Source: Natrinema marinum (lineage in GTDB: Archaea > Halobacteriota > Halobacteria > Halobacteriales > Natrialbaceae). Taken from it: DNA of 64,000 nucleotides. Below the pieces are notes generated by a model. That model saw only the letters and a list, made by a program, of their open reading frames with translations, was not told the DNA's origin and searched no databases. The position numbers and the translations under genes are program-made. Below are positions 25,418-37,130 of this stretch, piece after piece. Every line of letters begins with the position of its first letter. Position 1 is the first letter of the stretch. The DNA lies in NCBI RefSeq assembly GCF_024296685.1, contig NZ_CP100763.1, positions 2,232,001 to 2,296,000 on the forward strand. Reading direction: 5' to 3'.

Positions 25418-25433
25418 TTTTAGGTCTGCCTAA
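25418..25433 (+). promoter_or_regulatory. Iron-box-like operator 1 (GMC oxidoreductase operon)
   Basis: TTTTAGG-TCTG-CCTAA, an inverted repeat, lies between a TATA-like AATATATG (25410-25417) and the ATG at 25443. It belongs to the set of five near-identical boxes in this cluster. The half-sites match the type bound by haloarchaeal DtxR/SirR (Idr) iron repressors (known family; binding here is inferred). Confidence 0.75.
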
Positions 25434-25442
25434 TCTCGCCGC

Positions 25443-25961
25443 ATGGAGCTGACCAGACGGGACGCGGTCGCCGCGCTGACGGCCCTCGGCGTCGGTGGGA
25501 CGCTCTCGGGCTGTGTCGCCCCGCCGGGCACCGAGCCGGTCGACACCGAACGACTCCGCGAGGGGCTGGCCGCGGCCGCCGAAGTCGTCTACCCGAGCGA
25601 GGTCACCGGGACGGCGACGTTCGTCGAGGCGTTCCTCGAGGGCCGGCTCGAGGATCGATCGCACGCCGAGGGGATGGAAGCGGCGGTCGCGGAACTGGAC
25701 GAGAACGCGTCAGTGTGGTACGACGACCGGTTCGCGGCGCTGTCGAGAGACGACCGCGAGCAGGTCCTTCGGAACCTACACGCCGACAGCGCCAACGAAC
25801 ACCCCGAGGGGACGACATCCGAGCGAGTGCGCTACTACGTGGTGAACGAACTGCTGCTCGCGCTGTACGCCTCGCCGGCCGGCGGGGAACTCGTCGGGCT
25901 CGAGAACCCGCAGGGCCATCCCGGCGGACTCGGAAGCTACCAGCGGGGGCCCGAGGCGTGA
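25443..25961 (+). CDS. Gluconate 2-dehydrogenase subunit 3-like lipoprotein
   Basis: 172 residues. A twin-arginine signal (LTRRDAVAAL) and lipobox (LSGC, Cys at about 21) predict Tat export and lipid anchoring outside the cell. The mature part resembles the small subunit of membrane-bound gluconate 2-dehydrogenase (AAEVVYPSEVTGTATFVEAF, split across its helices). Its stop overlaps the GTG start of the GMC flavoprotein gene by four bases. Together they form a two-subunit dehydrogenase. The subunit also resembles the Tat escort role of the family. It has an iron-box operator. Confidence 0.8.
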   Translation: MELTRRDAVAALTALGVGGTLSGCVAPPGTEPVDTERLREGLAAAAEVVYPSEVTGTATFVEAFLEGRLEDRSHAEGMEAAVAELDENASVWYDDRFAALSRDDREQVLRNLHADSANEHPEGTTSERVRYYVVNELLLALYASPAGGELVGLENPQGHPGGLGSYQRGPEA

Positions 25962-27595
25962 GCGGGGGGCGACCGCCGGCCGAGTCGGCCGAGCCCGTAC
26001 GCGACGGGGCCACGGATCGCACGCCGGTCGCGGACGCCGACGTCTGCGTGATCGGCGCGGGTCCGGCTGGCGGCATCGTCGCGGACCGGCTCGCCGAGAC
26101 CGGCCGCGAGGTCGTGATCCTCGAGGCCGGGCCGCGCTTTGACGACGCCGACAGGCTCGCCAGACAGGAGCGGGCGATTCGCCCGTACTACGACCGCCCC
26201 GCGGTCTGGGACGGCGACCCTGAGCGCGACGCCTACTCGTCGACAGGCGAGCGATTCTACCCGCTGAATCACGCGCGCGCTCGAGGCGTCGGCGGCTCGA
26301 CGCTCCACTGGCAGGGGATGGTGATGCGGCTCCACGAGGCCGATTTCGACTCCCGGAGCGTCCGCGGCGTCGGCGCGGACTGGCCGATCGACTACGACGA
26401 TCTCCGGCCGTACTACGCCGCCGCGGAGCGCGAACTCGGCGTCGCCGGTTCGCAGGACAACCCCTTCGCGCCGCCCCGCGAGGAGCCACACCCGATGCCG
26501 GCGTTTCCGCCCTCCTATAGCGACTCGCTGTTCGCCGAGGCCTGTGAGGAACTCGAGATCGCGATGCACTCCGTCCCCAACGCGCGTAACTCCGAGCCCC
26601 ACGACGGTCGGAGCGCCTGCGTCGGTTACGGCACCTGTCAGCCGGTCTGTCCCTCCGGCGCGAAGTACGACGCGACGGTCCACGTCGAGCGCGCCGAACG
26701 GCGGGGGACGACGGTGATCGACCGCGCACCCGTCCAGCGCCTCGAGCACACCGCCGACGAGATTACGGCGGCGGTCTACGCCACCCCCGACGGCGAGGAG
26801 CACCGACAGGCGGCCGACGCCTTCGTGATCGCCTGCGGCGGCGTCGAGACGCCCCGCCTGCTGCTGCTCTCCGAGTCGAGCCGCTACCCCGACGGGCTGG
26901 CCAACTCGAGCGGCCTCGTTGGCAAATTCTTCATGGACCACTGCTTTGCGGGCACGGGCGGCGTACTCGACGAGCCGACGCGACAGAACCACGTCGGCTT
27001 CCTCACGAGCGAGTCCCACCAGTTCTACGACGAGGCCGACGCGGAGTACGCGCCGTTCAAGCTCGAATTCTTCAACTACGACGGCCCGTCGCCCATCGAG
27101 ATGGCCCTGACCGGCGACGACTGGGGCGACGCCCTGCTCGAGCGCCTGCGCGAAGGCTACGGTAACCACATCGGGATGGGCGGGCTGGTCGAACAACTCC
27201 CGAGAGAGGACAGCTACGTTGCGCTCGATCCCGACCGGATCGACGACCGCGGGAATCCAGTCCCGGACGTCCACTGGACGGTCGGCGATCGGGCACTGCG
27301 CACCATCGAGCGCGTCAACGAGATTCAAGAGCGGATCCTCGCGGAACTCGGCGCGGAGCTCACCTGGCAGGTCGGCCCCGACAACACCGGCCCGGCTTAC
27401 CACCACATGGGGACGACTCGGATGGGCGACGATCCCGCCGAAAGCGTCGTCGGGCCCGACCTGCGGACCCACGACCTCGAGAACTGCTGGATCGCCTCGA
27501 GCAGCGTCTTCCCGACCGGCGGCGCGATGAACCCGACGCTGACGATCGCGGCGCTCGCGCTGAAGGCGGCCGATCACCTGCTCGAAGCGCTGTAA
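25958..27595 (+). CDS. GMC-family FAD oxidoreductase (gluconate dehydrogenase large-subunit type)
   Basis: 545 residues with GTG start at 25958, inside the preceding stop (GTGA). The Rossmann motif is VCVIGAGPAGGIVAD. Other landmarks are GGSTLHWQGM, a C-terminal YHHMGTTRMGDDP and SVFPTGGAMNPTLT with the active-site region. A short cysteine motif, CVGYGTCQPVCPSG, could hold a 3Fe-4S cluster as in gluconate and fructose dehydrogenases. It has no signal of its own, so it may travel with the Tat lipoprotein. The substrate is a sugar or sugar acid by family. No cytochrome subunit follows. Confidence 0.87.
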   Translation: MSGGRPPAESAEPVRDGATDRTPVADADVCVIGAGPAGGIVADRLAETGREVVILEAGPRFDDADRLARQERAIRPYYDRPAVWDGDPERDAYSSTGERFYPLNHARARGVGGSTLHWQGMVMRLHEADFDSRSVRGVGADWPIDYDDLRPYYAAAERELGVAGSQDNPFAPPREEPHPMPAFPPSYSDSLFAEACEELEIAMHSVPNARNSEPHDGRSACVGYGTCQPVCPSGAKYDATVHVERAERRGTTVIDRAPVQRLEHTADEITAAVYATPDGEEHRQAADAFVIACGGVETPRLLLLSESSRYPDGLANSSGLVGKFFMDHCFAGTGGVLDEPTRQNHVGFLTSESHQFYDEADAEYAPFKLEFFNYDGPSPIEMALTGDDWGDALLERLREGYGNHIGMGGLVEQLPREDSYVALDPDRIDDRGNPVPDVHWTVGDRALRTIERVNEIQERILAELGAELTWQVGPDNTGPAYHHMGTTRMGDDPAESVVGPDLRTHDLENCWIASSSVFPTGGAMNPTLTIAALALKAADHLLEAL

Positions 27596-27609
27596 CGGCC
27601 AGCCACTAG

Positions 27610-27626
27610 TTTAGGCAAACCTAAAA
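27610..27626 (+). promoter_or_regulatory. Iron-box-like operator 2 (GT2 glycosyltransferase)
   Basis: TTTAGG-CAAA-CCTAAAA, an almost perfect inverted repeat, lies 32 bases before the ATG at 27658. An AT-rich AGAATAAG follows. Same box as upstream of the iron ABC binding protein. Confidence 0.78.
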
Positions 27627-27657
27627 GAATAAGTGCGATGGGCGGCGAGTACCGCCA

Positions 27658-28401
27658 ATGACCAGCGGGGAACGAACGGCGGCGACGGACGGTGGGGACG
27701 AGTACACGTTCGACGACGTCAGCGTCGTCATGGGGACGTACAACGAAGAGGAAGCGATCGCGAAAGTCATCTCGGACGTCGAGGACGTGACCGACGGGAA
27801 CGCCGAGGTCGTCTGCGTCGACGGCTCGTCGGATCGCACGCCCGAGATCGCCCGCGAACACGGCGCGACGGTGATCGAGCAGGACCCGCAGGGGTACGGC
27901 GTCGCCGTCCGCGCGGCGATTCTCGAGCCCGACCGGCCGATCGTCGTCACCACCGACTGCGACGATACCTACCCGATGGAGCAGCTCCCGGAGTTCCTCG
28001 AGTTGATCAACGCGGGCTACGACGTGGTCAGTGGCGACCGACTCTACCACGGGGCCGACGCGATGCCGGCGTTCAACCGCTTCGGCAACCACGCCTTCGC
28101 CGCGCTCGCGAGCGTCCTCATGGGGACCCGGGTCCACGATACGACGACCGGGATGCGCGCCTACCGGCGCGACGTAGTCGAATCGATCGAGTGGTCCGAG
28201 AACACGGGCCTCTCGGCCGAACTGCTGATCCGGCCGCTGCTGCGCGGCTACGACGTGCGCGAACACCCGATCGCCTACCGCGAGCGCGCCGGCGAGACGA
28301 AACTCGATCCGATTCAGGGCGGAGCGGAGATCGCGAAATCGATCGTCAAGGTCTGTCTCGAGGAGCGACTCAGAGAACTGCCACACGAACCGACGCAGTG
28401 A
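27658..28401 (+). CDS. GT2 glycosyltransferase (dolichyl-phosphate hexose synthase type)
   Basis: 247 residues. A GT-A fold nucleotide-sugar transferase with VVMGTYNEEEAI at the start and VCVDGSSDRTPEIA. The metal-binding acidic motif follows as TTDCDDTYPM, and acceptor-side TTTGMRAYRRDV is also seen. Such enzymes move a hexose from a nucleotide sugar to dolichyl phosphate on the cytoplasmic face. No membrane anchor is seen. The preceding iron box makes it iron-regulated by inference. An ATG at 27638 is out of frame and followed by a stop after seven codons. Confidence 0.85.
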   Translation: MTSGERTAATDGGDEYTFDDVSVVMGTYNEEEAIAKVISDVEDVTDGNAEVVCVDGSSDRTPEIAREHGATVIEQDPQGYGVAVRAAILEPDRPIVVTTDCDDTYPMEQLPEFLELINAGYDVVSGDRLYHGADAMPAFNRFGNHAFAALASVLMGTRVHDTTTGMRAYRRDVVESIEWSENTGLSAELLIRPLLRGYDVREHPIAYRERAGETKLDPIQGGAEIAKSIVKVCLEERLRELPHEPTQ

Positions 28402-28437
28402 GAGCGGCGTCGATGGCCGCCGGCCGCGGTCAGCGCG

Positions 28438-28843
28438 TCAGTATCGGACGCTCCGCGCGAGCACGAAGATTAACACCGCGACTCGCAGCGAGCCGAGTAG
28501 CGTCTCGACGACGCGCCACGGACTCGTCCCGTAGCGCATGACCCACCGCGAACCCGCGAGCGCGATCGGCCGCCAGTAGTCGCCGTCTCGCCAGACCTGT
28601 CGTCGCCGGAAATGTTGCTCATGCAGGTAGAAGTCGGAGACCTGGTTCGGACGTTCTCCCGGCAGAGACGCTGCAGTTCGCGGGAGACCCACTATGTGGC
28701 TTCTGCGCGTTCCGTCACGCCGTCGATCGAGGGGACCTCCGTCTCGTACACCGGCCGCTCGCCGAAGGTGGTCTCGACGTTGAGTCGTATGTCGGTCAGT
28801 CTCGCCCGGTAGCGCCGTGCCCCCTCGCGACTGGCAGAGGAAG
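28438..28843 (-). pseudogene. Frame-disrupted remnant of a membrane protein
   Basis: No intact gene here. Two coding-like stretches in different minus-strand frames follow one another. The first (about 28694-28830) reads REGARRYRARLTDIRLNV then FGERPVYETEVPSIDGV and ends at a TAG. The second (28438 to about 28650) reads SDFYLHEQHFRRRQVW, then GSRWVMRYGTSPWRVV and a hydrophobic LRVAVLIFVLARSVRY. Composition and the YGTSPWRVV pattern suggest the C-terminal part of a membrane or ion-channel-like protein. Family unrecognised; it could also be two overlapping short genes. Confidence 0.4.
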
Positions 28844-30862
28844 TCAAGATCGATCGGTCCCGTCGACGGCCTCGAGGTGCGTCCGGACCGAGACGCCGCT
28901 GGGTGCACGACCGGGGACGTACGCCGCCGCGCCGCCGCAGTCGCGGATCCCGCTGCAGCGCTCGACGCGGGGCGTCAGCGCACGGACGGTCTCGCCATCG
29001 GTCGTAGTGGGGAACTCGAGCCGGTAGCTGAAACTGCCTCCGGGCCCGCGGTCGACGAACACGGTCACGACCACGTCGTCCCGGTCATCGACGGGAAGCG
29101 AGTCGGTGTCGTTCCACGCCGCCCCGTGGAGGCGCACGGCCCCGTCGGCGACGGTCAGCCGAACGGCCGTCTCGCCCGAGGCGTTTTCCGCGACGTAGGT
29201 CGCGCTGGCCTCGTCGGTCGTAACCGTCGCGGTGGCGCCGTCGGCCGCCGCCGGAACGCCGACGGTGGCGTTCAGTTCGACCGCGGAGCCGGCGACGTGC
29301 GTGACTCGCTGGAGTCGTGCGGCCCGCGGCGACTCAGCGTGGGGTGCCCACGCGCCCCGGTAGGCGAACCGGTAGAACGAGCGGTCGGGATACGCGTCGA
29401 CGACGGCAAAGGGGCGCTCGTCCATGGCGTACACCGTCGGTCCGTCGAAGTCCGGGTCGTTCCGAAACGCCTGAAACGGATGTGCGAGCCAATCGCCGTA
29501 CGGCGTCGGGAGGAAGACGACGGCCGGCTCGGCGGGTGGATCCTCGAGGGGCCCGTAGACCCGCTCGTAGGTCTCGGTCGCCGCCGCGTTTCGGTCGAGT
29601 CGCTCGTCGAAATTCGTCGCCGTCACGCCGCCGACCGCGAGCGCGCTCACGAGCAACGCGGCGACGAGCGTCGCCCGTGCGGCCTCCCGCGAGAGGTTCC
29701 GGTCGGCCGCCCGTTTGCCGGCAGCCGCCAGCGCGAGCGCGCCGACGGCGGCGAAGGCCGCGAACGGCACCAGGAGATCGAAGTGGTAGTACGGCCCGTG
29801 GGTGGCGATCAGCCCGTCGCCGGCCCGCTCGAGATCGCCGAGGAGGTTGTAGTTCCCCCAGAAGTAGACGTTGCCGACGGCGATGGTGGCGATCTGGCCG
29901 GCCACAATCGCCTGACGGGGCGAGAGTCCGCGCTGGACGGCGACGCCGAACCCGACTGCGGCCACGGCCGCGCCGAGGACGCCGCCCGCGATCCACCCCG
30001 TCACGAACGTTTCCAGCACCAGCGCGTTCGATCGCAGCGCCAGTTCGACGGTGTAGTCGACATCGTGGGCGAGGAGTTCCCGGTGTCCGAAGCCGAGTCC
30101 GTCCAGCGGGGCGAACGCCTCGTAGGGGAACACCAGCGCCGAGCCGGTCACGACGGCGTTGTACGCCATCGCGAGCGAGACGCCGACGAGCCCGAGCGCC
30201 GCCGTCGCGGTCTGTCTGGGAAGCGCTCGCCGCCGCTCGCGATAGAGGGTCCAGCACGCGTGGACGATAAACGGCGCGGCGAACAGCACCGCGGTGTAGG
30301 GCCGCGAGAAGAAGGCCAGTCCGATCGCCGCGCCGGCCGCCCCCGCGACGCGCAGCTCTCCCGTTCGGTCGGCCCGAAGGTAGCCGTAGGCGAAGGCCAG
30401 ATTCAGCATCGTCGTCGGCGCGTAGGGCAGGAAGACGGCCGACTCGATGAGAAACAGGGGCGAACAGAGCACGATCACGGCGGCCGCGAGGCCGGTCCGA
30501 CGGTCGAAGGCCTCGCGGACGACCAGCGCGACGAGCGCGAGTATCGCGGCGGCGATTCCCGGCAGCGCAAGCCGATAGCCGCCCGCCACTTCGCCGAGCG
30601 CGAAGATCGCCGCCGGAACGGGCGCGTACTTCGGATAGAGGCGGTCGCCGTCCTCGACGAAGAACCACGGCCGGAAGACATCCTCGACGGGCGGCCGGAC
30701 GAACAGTTGCCCGTCCAGCAGCATCGCCGCCTGCTGGAGGTAGACGCCCTCGTCGTGGTTAAGCGAATTGTAGTGAAAGAGGTGCGTCGCGAGCAGCCAG
30801 ACGGCGACCGCACCGGCGAGGGCCACGACGGCGACCGCCGCCCGCCACGTTCGGCGTCTCAT
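28844..30862 (-). CDS. GT39-like (ArnT/PMT-type) membrane glycosyltransferase
   Basis: 672 residues. The N-terminal two thirds hold about ten membrane segments. The first external loop has the acidic motif NHDEGVYLQQA, where ArnT/PMT enzymes carry their catalytic Asp/Glu. The C-terminal third is an external beta-rich domain (residues about 440-672). Such enzymes use polyprenyl-phosphate sugars as donors. It starts 42 bases after the iron permease gene and is probably the last gene of that iron-boxed operon, in the place where the ABC ATPase is normally found. A GT2 dolichyl-phosphate hexose synthase nearby could make its donor. Confidence 0.78.
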   Translation of the reverse strand: MRRRTWRAAVAVVALAGAVAVWLLATHLFHYNSLNHDEGVYLQQAAMLLDGQLFVRPPVEDVFRPWFFVEDGDRLYPKYAPVPAAIFALGEVAGGYRLALPGIAAAILALVALVVREAFDRRTGLAAAVIVLCSPLFLIESAVFLPYAPTTMLNLAFAYGYLRADRTGELRVAGAAGAAIGLAFFSRPYTAVLFAAPFIVHACWTLYRERRRALPRQTATAALGLVGVSLAMAYNAVVTGSALVFPYEAFAPLDGLGFGHRELLAHDVDYTVELALRSNALVLETFVTGWIAGGVLGAAVAAVGFGVAVQRGLSPRQAIVAGQIATIAVGNVYFWGNYNLLGDLERAGDGLIATHGPYYHFDLLVPFAAFAAVGALALAAAGKRAADRNLSREAARATLVAALLVSALAVGGVTATNFDERLDRNAAATETYERVYGPLEDPPAEPAVVFLPTPYGDWLAHPFQAFRNDPDFDGPTVYAMDERPFAVVDAYPDRSFYRFAYRGAWAPHAESPRAARLQRVTHVAGSAVELNATVGVPAAADGATATVTTDEASATYVAENASGETAVRLTVADGAVRLHGAAWNDTDSLPVDDRDDVVVTVFVDRGPGGSFSYRLEFPTTTDGETVRALTPRVERCSGIRDCGGAAAYVPGRAPSGVSVRTHLEAVDGTDRS

Positions 30863-30904
30863 CGGTCGGCCAGTGGGGTGGAACCGCTGCCTGTCACGTT
30901 CGGA

Positions 30905-32518
30905 TCACCGTCCCTCCTGGACGAGTATCACGGCCATCGACAGCCCGGAGATCCCGATCAGGACGAGCGCCGGGACCGCCGCCTGTCCGTACATGCCAGC
31001 TTCCTCGACGCTCCAAATGTAGGTCACCAGCGTGTCGAACCCGAGCGGGCGCAACATCAGGGTCGCCGGCAGTTCCTTCATCGTCGTGAGGAAGACGAGC
31101 GCGGCCCCGGCCGCCACGCCCGGCAGAATCAGCGGTAGCGTCACCTTTCGGAAGGTGGCCAACCGCGACCGGCCCAGCGTGCGAGACGCCTCGACGAGTT
31201 CCCGATCCACCTGCAGCGTCGAGGTTCGGATCGAGCCGATCGCCTGGGGCATGAATCGGACGACGTAGGCGAACACCAGCAACGGGATGGTCTTGTAGAC
31301 CGACGGCAACACGTCGAGGGTGAAGCTGAGCAACGCGATCGCGAGGACGATTCCCGGCGTCGCATAGCCGACGTAAGGTGCGCGATCGGCCAGCGCCGCC
31401 AGCCGCGAACTCGAGGTCGCCGACGCGATCGCGATCGGCAGCGCCACGAGGATCGACGCGGCGGCGGCCAGTAAGGCGACGTACGCCGAGTTGAAGCCGT
31501 ACTCCCACTCGAACGTGAGCTGGCCGCCCTCGTAGCCGGGGCCGCCCGCCGTCAGCCACATCGCGAAGATACCGATCGGGAGTGCGATCGCCAGCAGGGC
31601 GACGGCGGTCGGCAATACCAGCGCCGCATACCGCCAGCGGCCGAGTTCGAGGTCGGCGCTGTCGCGGTGACCGCCGCTCTCGTAGGCCCCCGACTCGTCG
31701 ACGCCGATGCGGGACTCGAGGGCGAGGATAACCGCCGTCACGGTCAGCAACTGCAACGACAGCAACGCGGCGTAATCGCGGGCGAACGCGTTGTATCGGG
31801 CGTAAATGAACTGCGTGAACACCTCGACGCGCATGATATTCGGTGTGCCGAAGTCCGCAAGCGCGTACAGCGCCACGAGCAACGCTCCGGCGGTGATCCC
31901 CGGCAGGATCTGCGGGAGCGTGATCCGGCGAAACGCCTCCCACCGACCCGCGTTGAGCGTCCGCGCCGCCTCCACGAGCGAGCCGTCGAGCGAGAGCAGC
32001 GATGCGCGCGTCGTCAGAAACACGTACGGATACGTATACAGCGTCAGCACGAACGCGGCCCCGGCGAACCCGTAGACCGACGGGATGGACTCGACGCCCA
32101 GCGGCGCGAGAAGGTCGGCGAGTTCGCCGCGCGGGCCGAACGCGGAGACGAACGCGAAGGCACCGAGGTAGCTGGGAACCGCAAGCGGCAACGCGGCGAG
32201 GACGGTCCAGAAGCGTGGAAACGGAATCCCGCCCTGAACCGTCAACAGCGCCAGCGGGACGCCGAGCAGGATGCTCGCGCCGGTGACCACCGCGACCAGG
32301 GCGACGCTCCGGACCAGCACCTCGAGCGTCTGTGGGGCGACGGCGAGTTCGAGCGCACGCACGCCGAGCCCGGCTGCGTCGACGGCCAGCCAGACGAGCG
32401 GGAGGACGAGTACGGCCGCGATGGCCGCGGCGAGCAGGGTGAGCCCGACGTCGGCGGCGGAGTCGTCTCCGTCCGCCCCTCGCGCGAGCGTGCGAGCGAC
32501 CTGCTCTCGAATGCTCAT
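30905..32518 (-). CDS. Iron(III)-type ABC transporter permease
   Basis: 537 residues with a duplicated binding-protein-dependent permease domain, about 12 membrane segments, as in FbpB/HitB/ThiP. EAA-loop motifs are seen twice: VEAARTLNAGRWEAFRRITL in the first half and VEASRTLGRSRLATFRKVTL in the second. These contact the ATPase. The start overlaps the stop of the binding-protein gene (ATGA). No ATPase gene follows; the next gene in the operon is a membrane glycosyltransferase. The ATPase must be encoded elsewhere. Confidence 0.92.
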   Translation of the reverse strand: MSIREQVARTLARGADGDDSAADVGLTLLAAAIAAVLVLPLVWLAVDAAGLGVRALELAVAPQTLEVLVRSVALVAVVTGASILLGVPLALLTVQGGIPFPRFWTVLAALPLAVPSYLGAFAFVSAFGPRGELADLLAPLGVESIPSVYGFAGAAFVLTLYTYPYVFLTTRASLLSLDGSLVEAARTLNAGRWEAFRRITLPQILPGITAGALLVALYALADFGTPNIMRVEVFTQFIYARYNAFARDYAALLSLQLLTVTAVILALESRIGVDESGAYESGGHRDSADLELGRWRYAALVLPTAVALLAIALPIGIFAMWLTAGGPGYEGGQLTFEWEYGFNSAYVALLAAAASILVALPIAIASATSSSRLAALADRAPYVGYATPGIVLAIALLSFTLDVLPSVYKTIPLLVFAYVVRFMPQAIGSIRTSTLQVDRELVEASRTLGRSRLATFRKVTLPLILPGVAAGAALVFLTTMKELPATLMLRPLGFDTLVTYIWSVEEAGMYGQAAVPALVLIGISGLSMAVILVQEGR

Positions 32519-33678
32519 CCCGAGACGCCGGCCTCGTCCATCAGCTCGAGGGTCGGCTCGAGGTTCGAGAGCTTCGAGAGATCGATGTCCGGCGGGCTCA
32601 GTTCGTCGACCGTTGGCAGGCCACCAACCGGGGCGACGCCCTCGATCATCGGGTAGGCGAAACTCTGCGTCGCGAAGAACTCCTGGGCCTCCGCGGAGAG
32701 GAGGTGGCGGACGAAGTCGTCGACGAGGTCGCCCCGCTGGGTGCCTTTGACCTTCAGCGCACCGGCGACGTTAATCAGCGCACCGGCATCGCCGCTCGTA
32801 AAGGCCAGATCGATCGGCGCGTCCGGCCGCCCGTTTTTGACCCGCATCGCGTAGTAGTGGTTGGCGAAGCCGGCCGTCAGGGCACCGTCGGCGACGGCCT
32901 GCGAGACGGCGAACTCGTTCCCGTACCGCTCGGTACCGGCTTCGCGCATGGAGACCAACCAGTTTCGGGTCGCCTCCTCGCCCTCGAGCAGCCGCATGGC
33001 CGTGACGAACGATTTGAACGCGCCGTAGGTCGGTGCCCACCCCATCGTTCCCTGCAGCGCCCCGGTGTCGGGGAACTCCTGAACGGTGCTCGGGATGTCC
33101 GACGCGCTCAGTTCGTCGGTGTTGTACGGGACGGCACGCGCACGGCCGGCGACGCCGGCCCACGCATTGTCGTCACCGACGTACTGACTGTTGGCGACGG
33201 GCTCGACCGCCGCGTCCGACAGCGGTTCGTACGCGTCGTTGTCCGCGACGAATCCCAGCGAACTGGCGTCGATCGACCAGAACACGTCCGCCTGAGCCGC
33301 GCCGGCGTCGACCTCTTCGACGATGGTCTGGGCCAGCGCCGCCGAGCTGTTGTCGCTCGCGTGGACCTCGAAATCGGGATAGATCCGCTCGAGCATCTCG
33401 ACGAACTGGTAGTAGATCCCACCCTCACCGCCGCCGATATACAGCGCGAGATCGCCCGAGAGGTTCGGGAGGTCCTCGATGGAGGTCCCCCCCGGTGCTG
33501 TCCGTCCTTCGACCAGCGAGCCGGAGCCGCGGAACTCGGCGAGCGACGGGATTTCTGCATTCTGTTCGTTGTCGTTGAAAAATCCGAGGCAGCCAGCGAC
33601 CGACGCGAGACCGAACGTGGAGCCCACCTGCAGTGCTCGTCGCCGAGACAATCCCCGAAAGTCCCTGTTTTCGTCCAT
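32515..33678 (-). CDS. Iron(III)-type ABC transporter substrate-binding lipoprotein
   Basis: 387 residues. A Tat signal (SRRRALQV) with a lipobox (SVAGC, Cys at about 29) predicts export and lipid anchoring at the outer membrane face. The mature part is a type II periplasmic-binding fold of the ferric iron/thiamine group. Segments include LALYIGGGEGGIYYQFVEML, ADVFWSIDASSLGFV and FANHYYAMRVKNG, where the Tyr pair is a typical Fe(III) ligand site of FbpA. A near-perfect iron box lies six bases upstream of the ATG. Confidence 0.9.
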   Translation of the reverse strand: MDENRDFRGLSRRRALQVGSTFGLASVAGCLGFFNDNEQNAEIPSLAEFRGSGSLVEGRTAPGGTSIEDLPNLSGDLALYIGGGEGGIYYQFVEMLERIYPDFEVHASDNSSAALAQTIVEEVDAGAAQADVFWSIDASSLGFVADNDAYEPLSDAAVEPVANSQYVGDDNAWAGVAGRARAVPYNTDELSASDIPSTVQEFPDTGALQGTMGWAPTYGAFKSFVTAMRLLEGEEATRNWLVSMREAGTERYGNEFAVSQAVADGALTAGFANHYYAMRVKNGRPDAPIDLAFTSGDAGALINVAGALKVKGTQRGDLVDDFVRHLLSAEAQEFFATQSFAYPMIEGVAPVGGLPTVDELSPPDIDLSKLSNLEPTLELMDEAGVSG

Positions 33679-33684
33679 ACGCGG

Positions 33685-33701
33685 TTTAGGCCCACCTAAA
33701 A
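33685..33701 (-). promoter_or_regulatory. Iron-box-like operator 3 (iron ABC operon)
   Basis: TTTAGG-CCCA-CCTAAAA lies six bases before the ATG at 33678. A TATA-like CTATAAGG sits just upstream (33702-33711). It would overlap the transcription start and block initiation if bound. Confidence 0.82.
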
Positions 33702-33717
33702 CCTTATAGCTAACGAT

Positions 33718-34899
33718 TCAGTCGTCGGCGGTGATCCGACCCCGTTCGGCCTCGAGGCCGGCCTGAGGGCGGAGTTCCGCCAGACACTCGAGCCAGTCGC
33801 GCATGTGCTCGCCGACGTGGTTGAAGAACGCGCCGTTGTTGTAGTCCGACCAGTCGCCCTCGGCGAGTTCGTCGGCCATCGCCGCGAAGACCGCGGCGTA
33901 AGAGTCGGCGTCCGAACCCGAATCGTCGATCACGCGCCAGAGGTGCTCGTTGAGTTCGAGGCCGGGCACCTCGTTGTTGAGGTCGTCGAAGGTGCTGCGC
34001 GGGGCCTTGTTGTGCTCACACAGCGGCGCGCCGTTGTAGATCCGTTTACCGAGCACGTCACAGGCTCGTTTGAGGAAGACGCCCGACCAGATGTCGTCGA
34101 ACCGGCCGACGTCCCACTCGTTGTCGTCCATCGGGAGCTGGTAGAACGCGGGGATCACCTCGCGTCGGAAGGCGAGGTTCATCGAGCAGACGGTGAGGTA
34201 GTTGCTCCGCGCCGCGACGAAGTCCTCGCCGAAATCGTCCTCGGTCGTGCGGGTCTGGGCCTGCCCCTCCAAGTCGCCGTCCATCAGGATGCGGACGGCG
34301 TCTAAGTCGGGGACGTTCGTCCACAGCCCCTGCGAGGCGACGACGCTCCCCTCGTCGACCTCGGTCGTCCCGGTTCCGACGGTCTCTCCCATCGCCGAGT
34401 AGGGGTAGCCCCGCGGGTAGAGGCCGTGTTCGTCGGCGTTCTGGTAGAGCACGTTGACCCACTGCTCGTCGGACGAAACGGACTCGATCTCGCCCTCGAA
34501 CGCGAGATTCTCCATGTGCGTGCCGAAGAAGTCCTCGTCGGGATGTGGCAGTGTATCGTCGTCGATGAAGAAGCCGTAGTCGAACTCGTCGTGGGCCCAC
34601 ATGTAGAGCAGCCCGAAGCTCGTCTCGGCATGGCTCGCCGCCGGGACGACGTGACCGTACTCCGCCACGTCGTGGGCGGCGTACCACTCCTCGCGGCGGC
34701 TACCGTCGAAGACCTCGCCCGAGACGCCTTCGTCCTCGAGCATCGCTTCCATCTCGTCGGTCTCACAGAAGTCCTCGGTGACGAGCACGACGTGGAGTCG
34801 CTCGAGGTCGAAACCGTGCTCGCGTGCGTTCCCGAAGTACGAGCGCATACACTCGTATTCCCTGATCGTCGGCACGATTACACAGATGTCCTGACTCAT
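33718..34899 (-). CDS. RGP-family (reversibly glycosylated polypeptide) glycosyltransferase
   Basis: 393 residues. N-terminal CVIVPTIREYECMRSYF and the acidic FFIDDDTLPHPDEDFF give a GT-A-like nucleotide-sugar site. The layout resembles RGP/UDP-arabinopyranose mutase proteins, of which haloarchaea have homologues. In plants the family self-glycosylates and interconverts UDP-arabinose ring forms. The reaction here is unknown. ATG at 34899 (MSQDICVIVPT) is preferred; the GTG at 34923 lies inside iron box 4, so it cannot be the start if the box acts as an operator. The gene follows the AglD-like gene on the same strand. Confidence 0.78.
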   Translation of the reverse strand: MSQDICVIVPTIREYECMRSYFGNAREHGFDLERLHVVLVTEDFCETDEMEAMLEDEGVSGEVFDGSRREEWYAAHDVAEYGHVVPAASHAETSFGLLYMWAHDEFDYGFFIDDDTLPHPDEDFFGTHMENLAFEGEIESVSSDEQWVNVLYQNADEHGLYPRGYPYSAMGETVGTGTTEVDEGSVVASQGLWTNVPDLDAVRILMDGDLEGQAQTRTTEDDFGEDFVAARSNYLTVCSMNLAFRREVIPAFYQLPMDDNEWDVGRFDDIWSGVFLKRACDVLGKRIYNGAPLCEHNKAPRSTFDDLNNEVPGLELNEHLWRVIDDSGSDADSYAAVFAAMADELAEGDWSDYNNGAFFNHVGEHMRDWLECLAELRPQAGLEAERGRITADD

Positions 34900-34906
34900 T
34901 GCCTCG

Positions 34907-36091
34907 CTATCTTTTAGGCTCACCTAAAACACTACCGGTTTCCCGCGTCGTCTCGGGCGTCGACCCGGTGGCATCCGAAAGCGAGACCCCGAGCGCGGCG
35001 ACGGCGCCGGCACCGCCGACCAGCGTGACGCCGTTTTTCAGCGCGTGATCGACGATAGCGGCCGCCAATGCGGTGCTCGCGCCGATAGGAGTGAGTCCGA
35101 CGATCAGCGCGGTGAAGGCGGCCTCGTAGAGCCCGACGCCGCCCTGCGAGAGCGGCAGGACCTTCGCGAGGTTGCCGACGCTGACCGCCAGCGTCCCGAC
35201 CGTCACCAGGGTGGCGAACGCGAGCCCACTTCCCAGCGCCGCGAGAACGAGGACCGCGGTGAGTACGTCGAGCGACCACACCAGCAGACTGCCGACCCCG
35301 ATCCGTCCGAGCGCCCGCGGTCGGCGCGCGACCGTCTGTACGTCGCCCGCGAAACGGAGGCCGGCCTCGAGCGCTCCCTCGAGCCGCGGTCGGCCCGCGA
35401 CTCGCGACCGAAGCCGCGCGCCGAGTCCGTGATTCGCCCGCGCCGAGGTGACGACCGCGAGGCCGACACCCGCAGTCGTCGCGCTCACGGCCGCTGCGGC
35501 CAGCGCAGCGGTTCGCGCACCGTCGCTCGAAAAGGCGGCCTCGAGCGGGCCTGCCGCGCCTCCCAGCGCGAGCCACGCGGTCGCGAGCCCCGCCAAGACG
35601 GCGATGGTCGCCAGGTCGAACACGCGCTCGACGGCCAGCGACGCGAAGCCCGCAGCATAGGGAACGTTCCGGCGAGTTCGCATCACGTGGGCGCGCGCCG
35701 CGTCGCCGGCCCGCGCCGGAATCGCGAGGTTCGCCGTCTGACTGACAAAAACAGCCGCCGTGGCCACGAGGGTGTCGCTGCGGTGGTCCATCGCGGCCAG
35801 CACGTCGCGGTACCGGCGGCCCCGAAGCGGCCACGAGACCGCGTAGACGGCGACCGCGGCCCCAAGTAATCGAGGATCGGCGCTCGAGACTTGGGCGACC
35901 ACGGTCCCGATATCGAGTTCCCGGAGGGCGACGGCCAGTCCGAGCAGTACGAGGAGCGTCCCGGCGACCGTCAATCGGCGGCGAGTCAGAACGGTGGCGA
36001 GCCCGCGGCTCGTCGATTCGCTCTCGGTCTCCCCACCGTCGGGCTCGATGCTGCCGTCCCGTGAGCCCGACTGCACACCCCCGTCGTTCAC
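34907..36091 (-). CDS. AglD-like lysylphosphatidylglycerol synthase-type membrane protein
   Basis: 394 residues of the UPF0104/LPG-synthase transmembrane family, with about eight membrane segments. A conserved central motif is seen as SQTANLAIPARAGDAARA. Near the end is VLPLSQGGVGLYEAAFTALI. In haloarchaea such domains occur in AglD-type proteins linked to glycan assembly or lipid-linked sugar transfer. GTG start at 36091 (MNDGGVQSG); the N-terminal 30 residues are acidic and disordered. Iron box 5 lies 25 bases upstream. Its 3' end contains iron box 4. Confidence 0.8.
   Translation of the reverse strand: MNDGGVQSGSRDGSIEPDGGETESESTSRGLATVLTRRRLTVAGTLLVLLGLAVALRELDIGTVVAQVSSADPRLLGAAVAVYAVSWPLRGRRYRDVLAAMDHRSDTLVATAAVFVSQTANLAIPARAGDAARAHVMRTRRNVPYAAGFASLAVERVFDLATIAVLAGLATAWLALGGAAGPLEAAFSSDGARTAALAAAAVSATTAGVGLAVVTSARANHGLGARLRSRVAGRPRLEGALEAGLRFAGDVQTVARRPRALGRIGVGSLLVWSLDVLTAVLVLAALGSGLAFATLVTVGTLAVSVGNLAKVLPLSQGGVGLYEAAFTALIVGLTPIGASTALAAAIVDHALKNGVTLVGGAGAVAALGVSLSDATGSTPETTRETGSVLGEPKR
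34912..34929 (-). promoter_or_regulatory. Iron-box-like operator 4 (RGP gene)
   Basis: TTTTAGG-CTCA-CCTAAAA lies 13 bases before the ATG at 34899. It overlaps the last codons of the upstream AglD-like gene (34907-36091), so the operator is embedded in coding sequence. Confidence 0.8.
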
Positions 36092-36115
36092 GTCCAGGTC
36101 CTTGGCGCCCAGATA

Positions 36116-36132
36116 TTTAAGCCCACCTAAAA
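36116..36132 (-). promoter_or_regulatory. Iron-box-like operator 5 (AglD-like gene)
   Basis: TTTAAG-CCCA-CCTAAAA, one mismatch from the other four boxes, lies 25 bases before the GTG at 36091. It supports iron control of this unit as well. Confidence 0.68.
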
Positions 36133-36200: not shown

Positions 36201-37130
36201 TCAGCGGAGTTCGTCGACGAGTTCGCGCGTCGCGCGACGAACCGCTTCGTCGCTCGAGAGGCGCGGCTCCCAGCCCAGCGCCGAGAGCTTCTCGATCGAG
36301 AGGCGCATCTTCGGCACGTCGCCGGTCCAGCCCCGTTCGCCGCCGGTGTACTCCCGGGCGGGGTCGACGCCGAGTTCCTCGGCGACGATGGCCGCGATCC
36401 GGTCGACCGACGTCGTCGTGCGCGTCCCGAGATTGTACGTGTTCATGGCATCGTCGGCGTGCTCGACGACGTGGAACATGGCGTCGAGACAGTCCTCGAC
36501 GTGGAGGTAGGACTTCTCCTGACGGCCGTCACCGAGAATCGTCAGCGTTTCGGGATCGTCCAGCAACTTCTCGATGAAGTCGGGAATCACCGCGCCGCGC
36601 AGGCGCGGCCCCACGACGTTCGCGAAGCGGAAGTTCCAGACGGTCAGGTCGTGGCTGTGGGCCCGCGCGGAGAGCAGCCCCTCGTCGGCCAGTTTGCTCG
36701 CCCCGTAGGCGCTGATCGGCTCGAGGGGCGCGTAATCCTCGGGCGTCGGCCGCGGGGCCTCGCCGTAGACCGTCGAGGTGGAGGTGTAGGCGATCTCGGT
36801 GACGTCCGCGTCGGCCATCGCCTCGAGGATGGTGCGGGTCATCCGCGTGTTGTCGTCGAACTGGCCGTGGGGGCGGTCCGTGTCGACGTGTTTCGAGGCC
36901 GCGAGGTGGAAGACGAGATCAACGCCGTCGAGGCGGCCGTCGAGGGCGTCTGGGTCGGTGAGGTCGGCCTCGAGGAAGTCGGCGTCGTCGGGAACGCGGT
37001 CGCGGTCGCCGTTCGAAAGGTCGTCGACGGCGAGGACGTCCGCGCCGTCGGCGAGCAGGCGCTCGGTGAGGTGCGATCCGATGAAGCCGGCTCCGCCGGT
37101 GACGAGCACACGTCGGCTCGAGAGAGTCAT
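36201..37130 (-). CDS. NAD-dependent sugar epimerase/dehydratase
   Basis: 309 residues of the extended short-chain dehydrogenase family. The NAD motif is TGGAGFIGSHL (residues 11-20). The catalytic Ser/Tyr/Lys set is seen in TSTSTVYGE and SAYGASK. Family members act as UDP-glucose 4-epimerase or related nucleotide-sugar enzymes. It starts about 110 bases downstream of the AglD-like unit's promoter region but lacks an iron box. It may supply a nucleotide sugar for the neighbouring glycosyltransferases (inference). The exact sugar is unknown. Confidence 0.9.
   Translation of the reverse strand: MTLSSRRVLVTGGAGFIGSHLTERLLADGADVLAVDDLSNGDRDRVPDDADFLEADLTDPDALDGRLDGVDLVFHLAASKHVDTDRPHGQFDDNTRMTRTILEAMADADVTEIAYTSTSTVYGEAPRPTPEDYAPLEPISAYGASKLADEGLLSARAHSHDLTVWNFRFANVVGPRLRGAVIPDFIEKLLDDPETLTILGDGRQEKSYLHVEDCLDAMFHVVEHADDAMNTYNLGTRTTTSVDRIAAIVAEELGVDPAREYTGGERGWTGDVPKMRLSIEKLSALGWEPRLSSDEAVRRATRELVDELR

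Follow-up and report, generated by a model that had tools for sequence, protein, structure and literature searches.

Five DtxR-type boxes suggest joint iron control of a ferric-iron transporter and a putative dolichol-phosphate glycan branch in Natrinema marinum

The 64,000-nt stretch analysed here (positions 2,232,001 to 2,296,000 of contig NZ_CP100763.1, assembly GCF_024296685.1; hereafter the window) belongs to the single-contig 3.77-Mb genome of Natrinema marinum, the nearest named relatives of which are Natrinema. It contains a gene cluster predicted to encode the binding protein and permease of a ferric-iron ATP-binding cassette (ABC) transporter, a set of proteins potentially involved in glycan assembly (a GT75 mutase, a GT2 dolichyl-phosphate hexose transferase, a flippase-like protein and a GT-C transferase) and a sugar dehydrogenase pair dependent on flavin adenine dinucleotide (FAD). 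Five copies of the palindrome TTTAGG-N4-CCTAAA precede genes of the cluster (Table 1). This arrangement suggests that ferric-iron uptake and a glycan branch using dolichyl phosphate (DolP) may be switched on together during iron starvation.

Table 1. Genes and iron boxes of the cluster. Positions refer to the window; the distance is given in nt from the box edge to the likely start codon.
Feature	Position	Strand	Length (amino acids)	Distance	Basis or remark
Iron box 1, TTTAGGTCTGCCTAAT	25419..25434	+		8	1 mismatch; left edge adjoined by A/T-rich TATA-like stretch
Gluconate_2-dh3 small subunit (GDH3)	25443..25961	+	172		PF13618 E 9e-10; twin-Arg/lipobox-like N-terminus
GMC oxidoreductase large subunit, FAD-glucose/fructose dehydrogenase type	25958..27595	+			8hdd E 1.5e-90
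Iron box 2, TTTAGGCAAACCTAAA	27610..27625	+		32	exact
GT2, dolichyl-phosphate hexose transferase	27658..28401	+	247		NF041391 409 bits (cut-off 375); PF00535
Decayed pentapeptide-repeat membrane protein remnant, not functional here	28441..28823	-			tblastn pieces in broken frames
GT-C (PMT/ArnT-like) polyprenyl-phosphate-sugar transferase, C-terminal DUF7846	28844..30862	-	672		PF13231, PF25230
Fused ABC permease, FbpB-like layout	30905..32518	-	537		PF00528 twice
FbpA-like ferric-binding lipoprotein	32515..33678	-	387		7w3w E 1e-45 and other FbpA structures
Iron box 3	33685..33700	-		6	exact; ahead of ferric-binding lipoprotein
GT75 NDP-pyranose mutase	33718..34899	-	393		PF03214; MtdL 7xpr E 1.7e-21
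Flippase-like membrane protein (LPG_synthase_TM / UPF0104)	34907..36091	-	394		PF03706 E 2.5e-41; TIGR00374
Iron box 4	34913..34928	-		13	exact; ahead of GT75 gene
Iron box 5	36116..36131	-		24	1 mismatch; ahead of flippase-like gene
NDP-sugar epimerase/dehydratase	36201..37130	-			PF01370

The window was scanned for the box pattern with mismatches counted. All five boxes pointed out by an earlier note on this DNA are real, two of its coordinates being off by one (25419 instead of 25418 and 34913 instead of 34912), and the distance of about 35 bases or less to a start codon that it had claimed was measured as 6 to 32 nt. Its statement that the window holds no other copy is likewise correct, all next sites having at least three mismatches. 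As no site with one mismatch or less arose in 300 dinucleotide-shuffled versions of the window, the five boxes lie beyond chance expectation. In 2.77 Mb of related loci 404 half-site pairs were separated by a spacer of 4 nt and none by spacers of 0-3 or 5-12 nt, so that the boxes represent a palindromic operator of fixed spacing at promoters as in a DtxR-type regulon. In the spacer, Y is favoured at position 1 and R at position 4; the half-site frequencies are biased because the sites were picked by pattern. In the upstream consensus A/T-rich TATA-like stretches flank or overlap the boxes, and the variant half of box 5, CTTAAATAT, may serve as a TATA element, too. Hence, a bound repressor may occlude the core promoter.

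A genome-wide scan for the pattern, of the kind proposed as a check in the earlier note, revealed 17 sites (10 exact and 7 with one mismatch), five of which fall in this cluster. The boxes outside the cluster are located no more than about 110 bp from a predicted start, with one exception midway between two divergent genes. They precede the genes predicted to encode a FecCD-type siderophore ABC system with two binding proteins, another Peripla_BP_2 binding protein and an FbpC/PotA-type ATPase which has its own box at 464.5 kb, 1.8 Mb from the window; the remaining boxed genes encode a Rieske protein, a DUF7551/DUF7552 protein and a truncated diaminobutyrate aminotransferase. The operator is therefore common to the recognisable iron-uptake genes of this genome. 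In another genus the box was found ahead of many ABC binding proteins and of a siderophore-type operon, and exact boxes occur in all 125 genomes of the family (1-23 each, the reversed control giving mostly 0 or 1).

Since the other genomic boxes precede the siderophore ABC system and the ATPase missing from the cluster, the box set very probably constitutes an iron-type DtxR regulon that is conserved across the class. The same interpretation in the earlier note is thus supported by the genes behind the boxes in this genome and in other genera. The haloarchaeal DtxR-family iron regulons (Idr1/Idr2, Halobacterium) are alike in that a palindromic operator precedes iron as well as siderophore ABC genes, and DtxR-family proteins are likewise encoded by the N. 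marinum genome, in which three full-length matches to PF01325 were detected, one adjoining the gene of a ZnuB-type permease. No box with two mismatches or less that would indicate autoregulation was detected upstream of the DtxR genes in this genome. In Haloferax volcanii a “ferR regulon signal”, which goes back to Leyn and Rodionov 2015 as cited in PMC11349517, has been reported on all fhu operons, and five FhuD proteins were increased more than 4-fold in iron starvation (PMC11349517). In contrast to what we found described for the haloarchaeal DtxR regulons, the operator would here also govern the GT75 mutase, the DolP hexose transferase, the flippase-like protein and the FAD sugar dehydrogenase, and the GT-C transferase would be included through the operon structure.

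The conservation of the cluster was analysed in 140 GT75 neighbourhoods across the class, in which genes were predicted by a codon-usage script and a box was defined as a site with one mismatch or less near a start. Boxes were found at the orthologues of the GT2 gene (114/115), the GT75 gene (137/140), the flippase-like gene (77/83), the ferric-binding protein gene (122/138) and the Gluconate_2-dh3 gene (80/97), compared to a background of 40 of 1298 other genes (3%), some of which are divergent partners of boxed genes. Genes inside the operons lacked a box of their own (GT-C 0/138, GMC 0/88, permeases of the window's type 0/43). The mixed iron and glycan cluster that had been noticed in the window is thus kept together with its boxes throughout the class. 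The permease and binding protein of the cluster come in two alternative subtypes (loci L069-L108), in one of which the permease gene is divergent from the GDH3 gene with one box common to both.

The GT75, GT2 and GT-C proteins were detected in an identical set of 57 of the 125 family genomes, with both presence and absence in nine genera, and 305 of 391 haloarchaeal genomes contain both GT75 and GT2, the two genome lists being identical in a comparison by eye. In genus g46 (G308 and G322) distances of about 77 and 105 kb separate the GT2 gene from the GT75 cluster, with the box still 32 nt before the GT2 start. In three further genera (G139, G171, G237, G317) it lies at least 45 kb away or deep in another contig and is still boxed; genomes with GT2 or GT75 near contig ends (G342, G199, G208, G224) were left out of this count. 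Unlinked GT2 orthologues score 401 and 405 bits with NF041391, above the cut-off of 375. All 16 additional GT2 genes examined are boxed. In some of them the box lies 120-200 nt from the first codon of the alignment, a distance explicable by longer N-termini. As the unlinked GT2 genes keep the box, both the regulation and the co-occurrence appear to persist without linkage.

The earlier note had regarded the product of the boxed gene 33718..34899 as an RGP-like glycosyltransferase. We rejected this assignment in favour of a GT75 mutase interconverting nucleoside diphosphate (NDP)-pyranose and NDP-furanose, based on the closest solved relative of this Pfam RGP protein, the GDP-pyranose mutase MtdL, on the catalytic residues and on the fold. 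The metal and catalytic residues of MtdL (DDD 109-111, Arg159, Asp195, Arg257, Asp260, His287; PMC9937993) have equivalents in D113-D115, R163, D198, R266, D269 and H296, which are invariant in 14 orthologues (alignment A1). The AlphaFold2 model of the protein, which is of moderate quality (mean pLDDT 63), also has MtdL as its top Foldseek match (E 9e-13). Thus, the protein resembles MtdL and the plant UAM/RGP mutases in sequence, fold and conserved metal motif, but shares only about 20% identity with MtdL in the structural alignment and does not keep its Gln229 and Asp87, which are Met and His here. According to its intact active-site residues the protein has a predicted mutase activity, and given its relationship to MtdL it would supply an NDP-furanose donor rather than transfer a sugar to an acceptor. 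In public records it is annotated as “alpha-1,4-glucan-protein synthase”.

The GT2 glycosyltransferase could be specified as a dolichyl-phosphate hexose transferase by the NF041391 equivalog model, which it passes. Possible counterparts among the haloarchaeal DolP-dependent transferases are HVO_1613 and AepG. HVO_1613 has been described as a DolP glycosyltransferase outside N-glycosylation; unlike for the boxed GT2, the published descriptions of both proteins that we examined contain no link to iron. The protein noted previously as GT39-like is encoded by the third gene of the operon of the ferric-binding lipoprotein. Its relationship was extended to a GT-C fold of the ArnT type, the family within GT-C being left broad (GT39/GT83-like): the AlphaFold2 model (pLDDT 85) has ArnT (5f15) as top Foldseek match, followed by oligosaccharyltransferases and arabinosyltransferases, and an invariant Asp-Glu pair is present near the N-terminus as in ArnT and the protein O-mannosyltransferases. 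Unlike ArnT, with which it shares 13% identity, it carries the C-terminal domain DUF7846.

The binding protein and permease assigned to an Fe(III) ABC transporter in the earlier note were substantiated by the matches of the former to solved FbpA structures and by the duplicated permease domain of the latter. The NHYY tyrosine pair of the lipoprotein aligns with the NNYY/NHYY of solved ferric-binding proteins. The transporter resembles the bacterial FbpABC systems in its FbpA-like binding protein, fused two-domain permease and candidate ABC ATPase. In contrast to these systems, an ATPase gene is lacking in the ABC operon of the window, which instead holds the GT-C glycosyltransferase gene, while in other genera the ATPase gene lies inside the ABC operon. 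The distant ATPase with its own box would be the natural candidate partner of the transporter.

The GMC oxidoreductase pair recognised previously resembles the subunits of FAD-glucose/fructose dehydrogenases in combining a small exported subunit with an alpha subunit that carries a cysteine cluster (C-x6-C-x3-C in 90 of 91 GMC orthologues). No candidate for a cytochrome c subunit was detected among the annotated genes of the cluster, the genome beyond it not having been searched. One may speculate that the dehydrogenase provides electrons or acidic sugars for the mobilisation of iron.

Taken together, N. marinum would employ the following scheme. Under iron-sufficient conditions an iron-loaded DtxR-family repressor would occupy the five core promoters, occluding the TATA element and the start site, and scarcity of iron would jointly derepress the five transcription units. 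The FbpA-like lipoprotein and the permease would then be produced and work with the distant ATPase expressed from its own boxed promoter. The GT75 mutase would convert an NDP-hexopyranose to the NDP-hexofuranose, the GT2 enzyme would load the hexose onto dolichyl phosphate, the UPF0104 protein would aid the membrane crossing of the DolP-hexose and the GT-C enzyme would pass the sugar to an extracytoplasmic acceptor, with the secreted FAD sugar dehydrogenase pair being made in the same response. The identity of the sugar, the order of the steps and the acceptor are our proposal. We consider it likely that the DolP glycan branch acts as a functional unit, and somewhat less likely, yet still probable, that the scheme as a whole is correct in that iron starvation derepresses FbpA/B uptake along with this branch. 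As acceptor we tentatively suggest a surface protein of the uptake system, foremost the co-transcribed ferric-binding lipoprotein. S-layer remodelling and a glycosylated ligand, as considered in the earlier note, may be two among several options.

Several points weigh against this interpretation. We infer iron as the metal of the regulon, the iron response and the acting repressor from sequences; these do not prove the metal, and the genome encodes three DtxR-family proteins. The co-occurrence of linked genes is partly due to block gain or loss. The transporter can do without the glycan genes, since relatives of the ferric-binding protein also exist in genomes that lack them. The linker GSG...PGG between the lipobox and the ferric-binding domain is present in 131 of 138 module-positive and in none of 20 module-negative proteins, but its GSG part is retained in some module-negative relatives; being confounded by phylogeny and possibly structural, the linker is a lead only, and we did not accept it as a proven acceptor.

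Alternatively, the glycan might be an extracellular polysaccharide or a glycolipid formed at low iron, for instance an anionic or furanose-rich polymer holding Fe(III) near the importer. The DolP glucuronosyltransferase AepG of Haloarcula makes an acidic extracellular polysaccharide while the S-layer N- and O-glycans are unaffected, and furanose donors from GT75 as well as the matches of the GT-C fold, which include the Emb/Aft arabinosyltransferases, would fit such a polymer. However, the conserved core comprises no polymerase, exporter or multi-glycosyltransferase operon and the GT-C gene is located in the ABC transporter operon; overall, this main alternative seems rather unlikely. By analogy with the glycosylated siderophores of bacteria, the enzymes might instead attach the glycan to a siderophore or another small iron ligand that is secreted, but this seems far less likely. 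Siderophore ABC genes are apparently co-regulated in the same genome, but no siderophore synthesis gene was recognised in the cluster. The glycan module is intact in this genome, whereas the boxed gene of the diaminobutyrate aminotransferase, an enzyme commonly encoded in siderophore operons, has been truncated. Furthermore, siderophore glucosyltransferases are cytosolic, unlike the GT-C enzyme, which represents a membrane-bound transferase of the DolP type. Binding of the boxes by a Mn- or Zn-responsive DtxR paralogue (SirR/TroR type), and hence a response of the cluster to a metal other than iron, appears least probable of all, since the boxed genes belong to ferric (FbpA-like) and siderophore-type ABC systems and no box was found near the ZnuB-type operon, despite the DtxR-family gene adjoining the ZnuB-type permease and the use of Mn2+ by GT75 mutases (PMC9937993).

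The iron-responsive DolP branch proposed here would assign, in a testable way and for the whole class, a pathway to three enzymes that have lacked one, the GT75 mutase, the DolP hexose transferase and the GT-C/DUF7846 protein, which are jointly present or absent across many genomes and have the iron operator in common. As such a switch-plus-sugar module is present in most haloarchaea, iron hunger and the glycan coat of the cell surface may be linked in a way not yet described. If confirmed, the branch would to our knowledge be the first glycan pathway under iron control reported from archaea, and could account for a DolP sugar outside N-glycosylation. In its most specific form, the proposal is that iron starvation induces, across most of the class, a dedicated DolP pathway that makes its own NDP-furanose and acts on the ferric receptor at the cell surface or on a different extracytoplasmic component of iron uptake; this is rather unlikely to hold in every part. 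Our literature search yielded no paper tying glycosyltransferases to iron in haloarchaea, although the published regulon site lists were not compared and may already contain these genes as predicted targets.

Next to the flippase-like gene, the NDP-sugar epimerase/dehydratase gene is probably outside the iron control because none of its 63 orthologues in the neighbourhoods is boxed. The published rise of HVO_1859 (UPF0104) and HVO_0655 (GalE-like) in iron starvation was dropped as support, their orthology to the cluster genes being unproven and the UPF0104 gene checked in genome G322 having no box nearby. At the place of the decayed remnant, relatives encode an intact pentapeptide-repeat protein with C-terminal transmembrane segments (L096:15557-16597).

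Among the other boxed genes, the truncated diaminobutyrate aminotransferase gene (L023 4579-5031; genome about 2837.1-2837.5 kb) encodes only 150 amino acids and has two boxes, apparently as the remainder of a siderophore operon that lost its genes but kept the operators. A divergent Rieske-domain protein and a 98-amino-acid protein have a box pair in common (L022 4620-5603). The DUF7552/DUF7551 protein (L024 5231-6160) may belong to the iron regulon as a conserved but uncharacterised component; a boxed protein with a similar N-terminus was found in a different family (L259 3099-4079). On contig 7 of genome G322 a divergent pair of ABC binding-protein genes with three intervening boxes occurs twice, in opposite orientation and about 51 kb apart (L266, L267).

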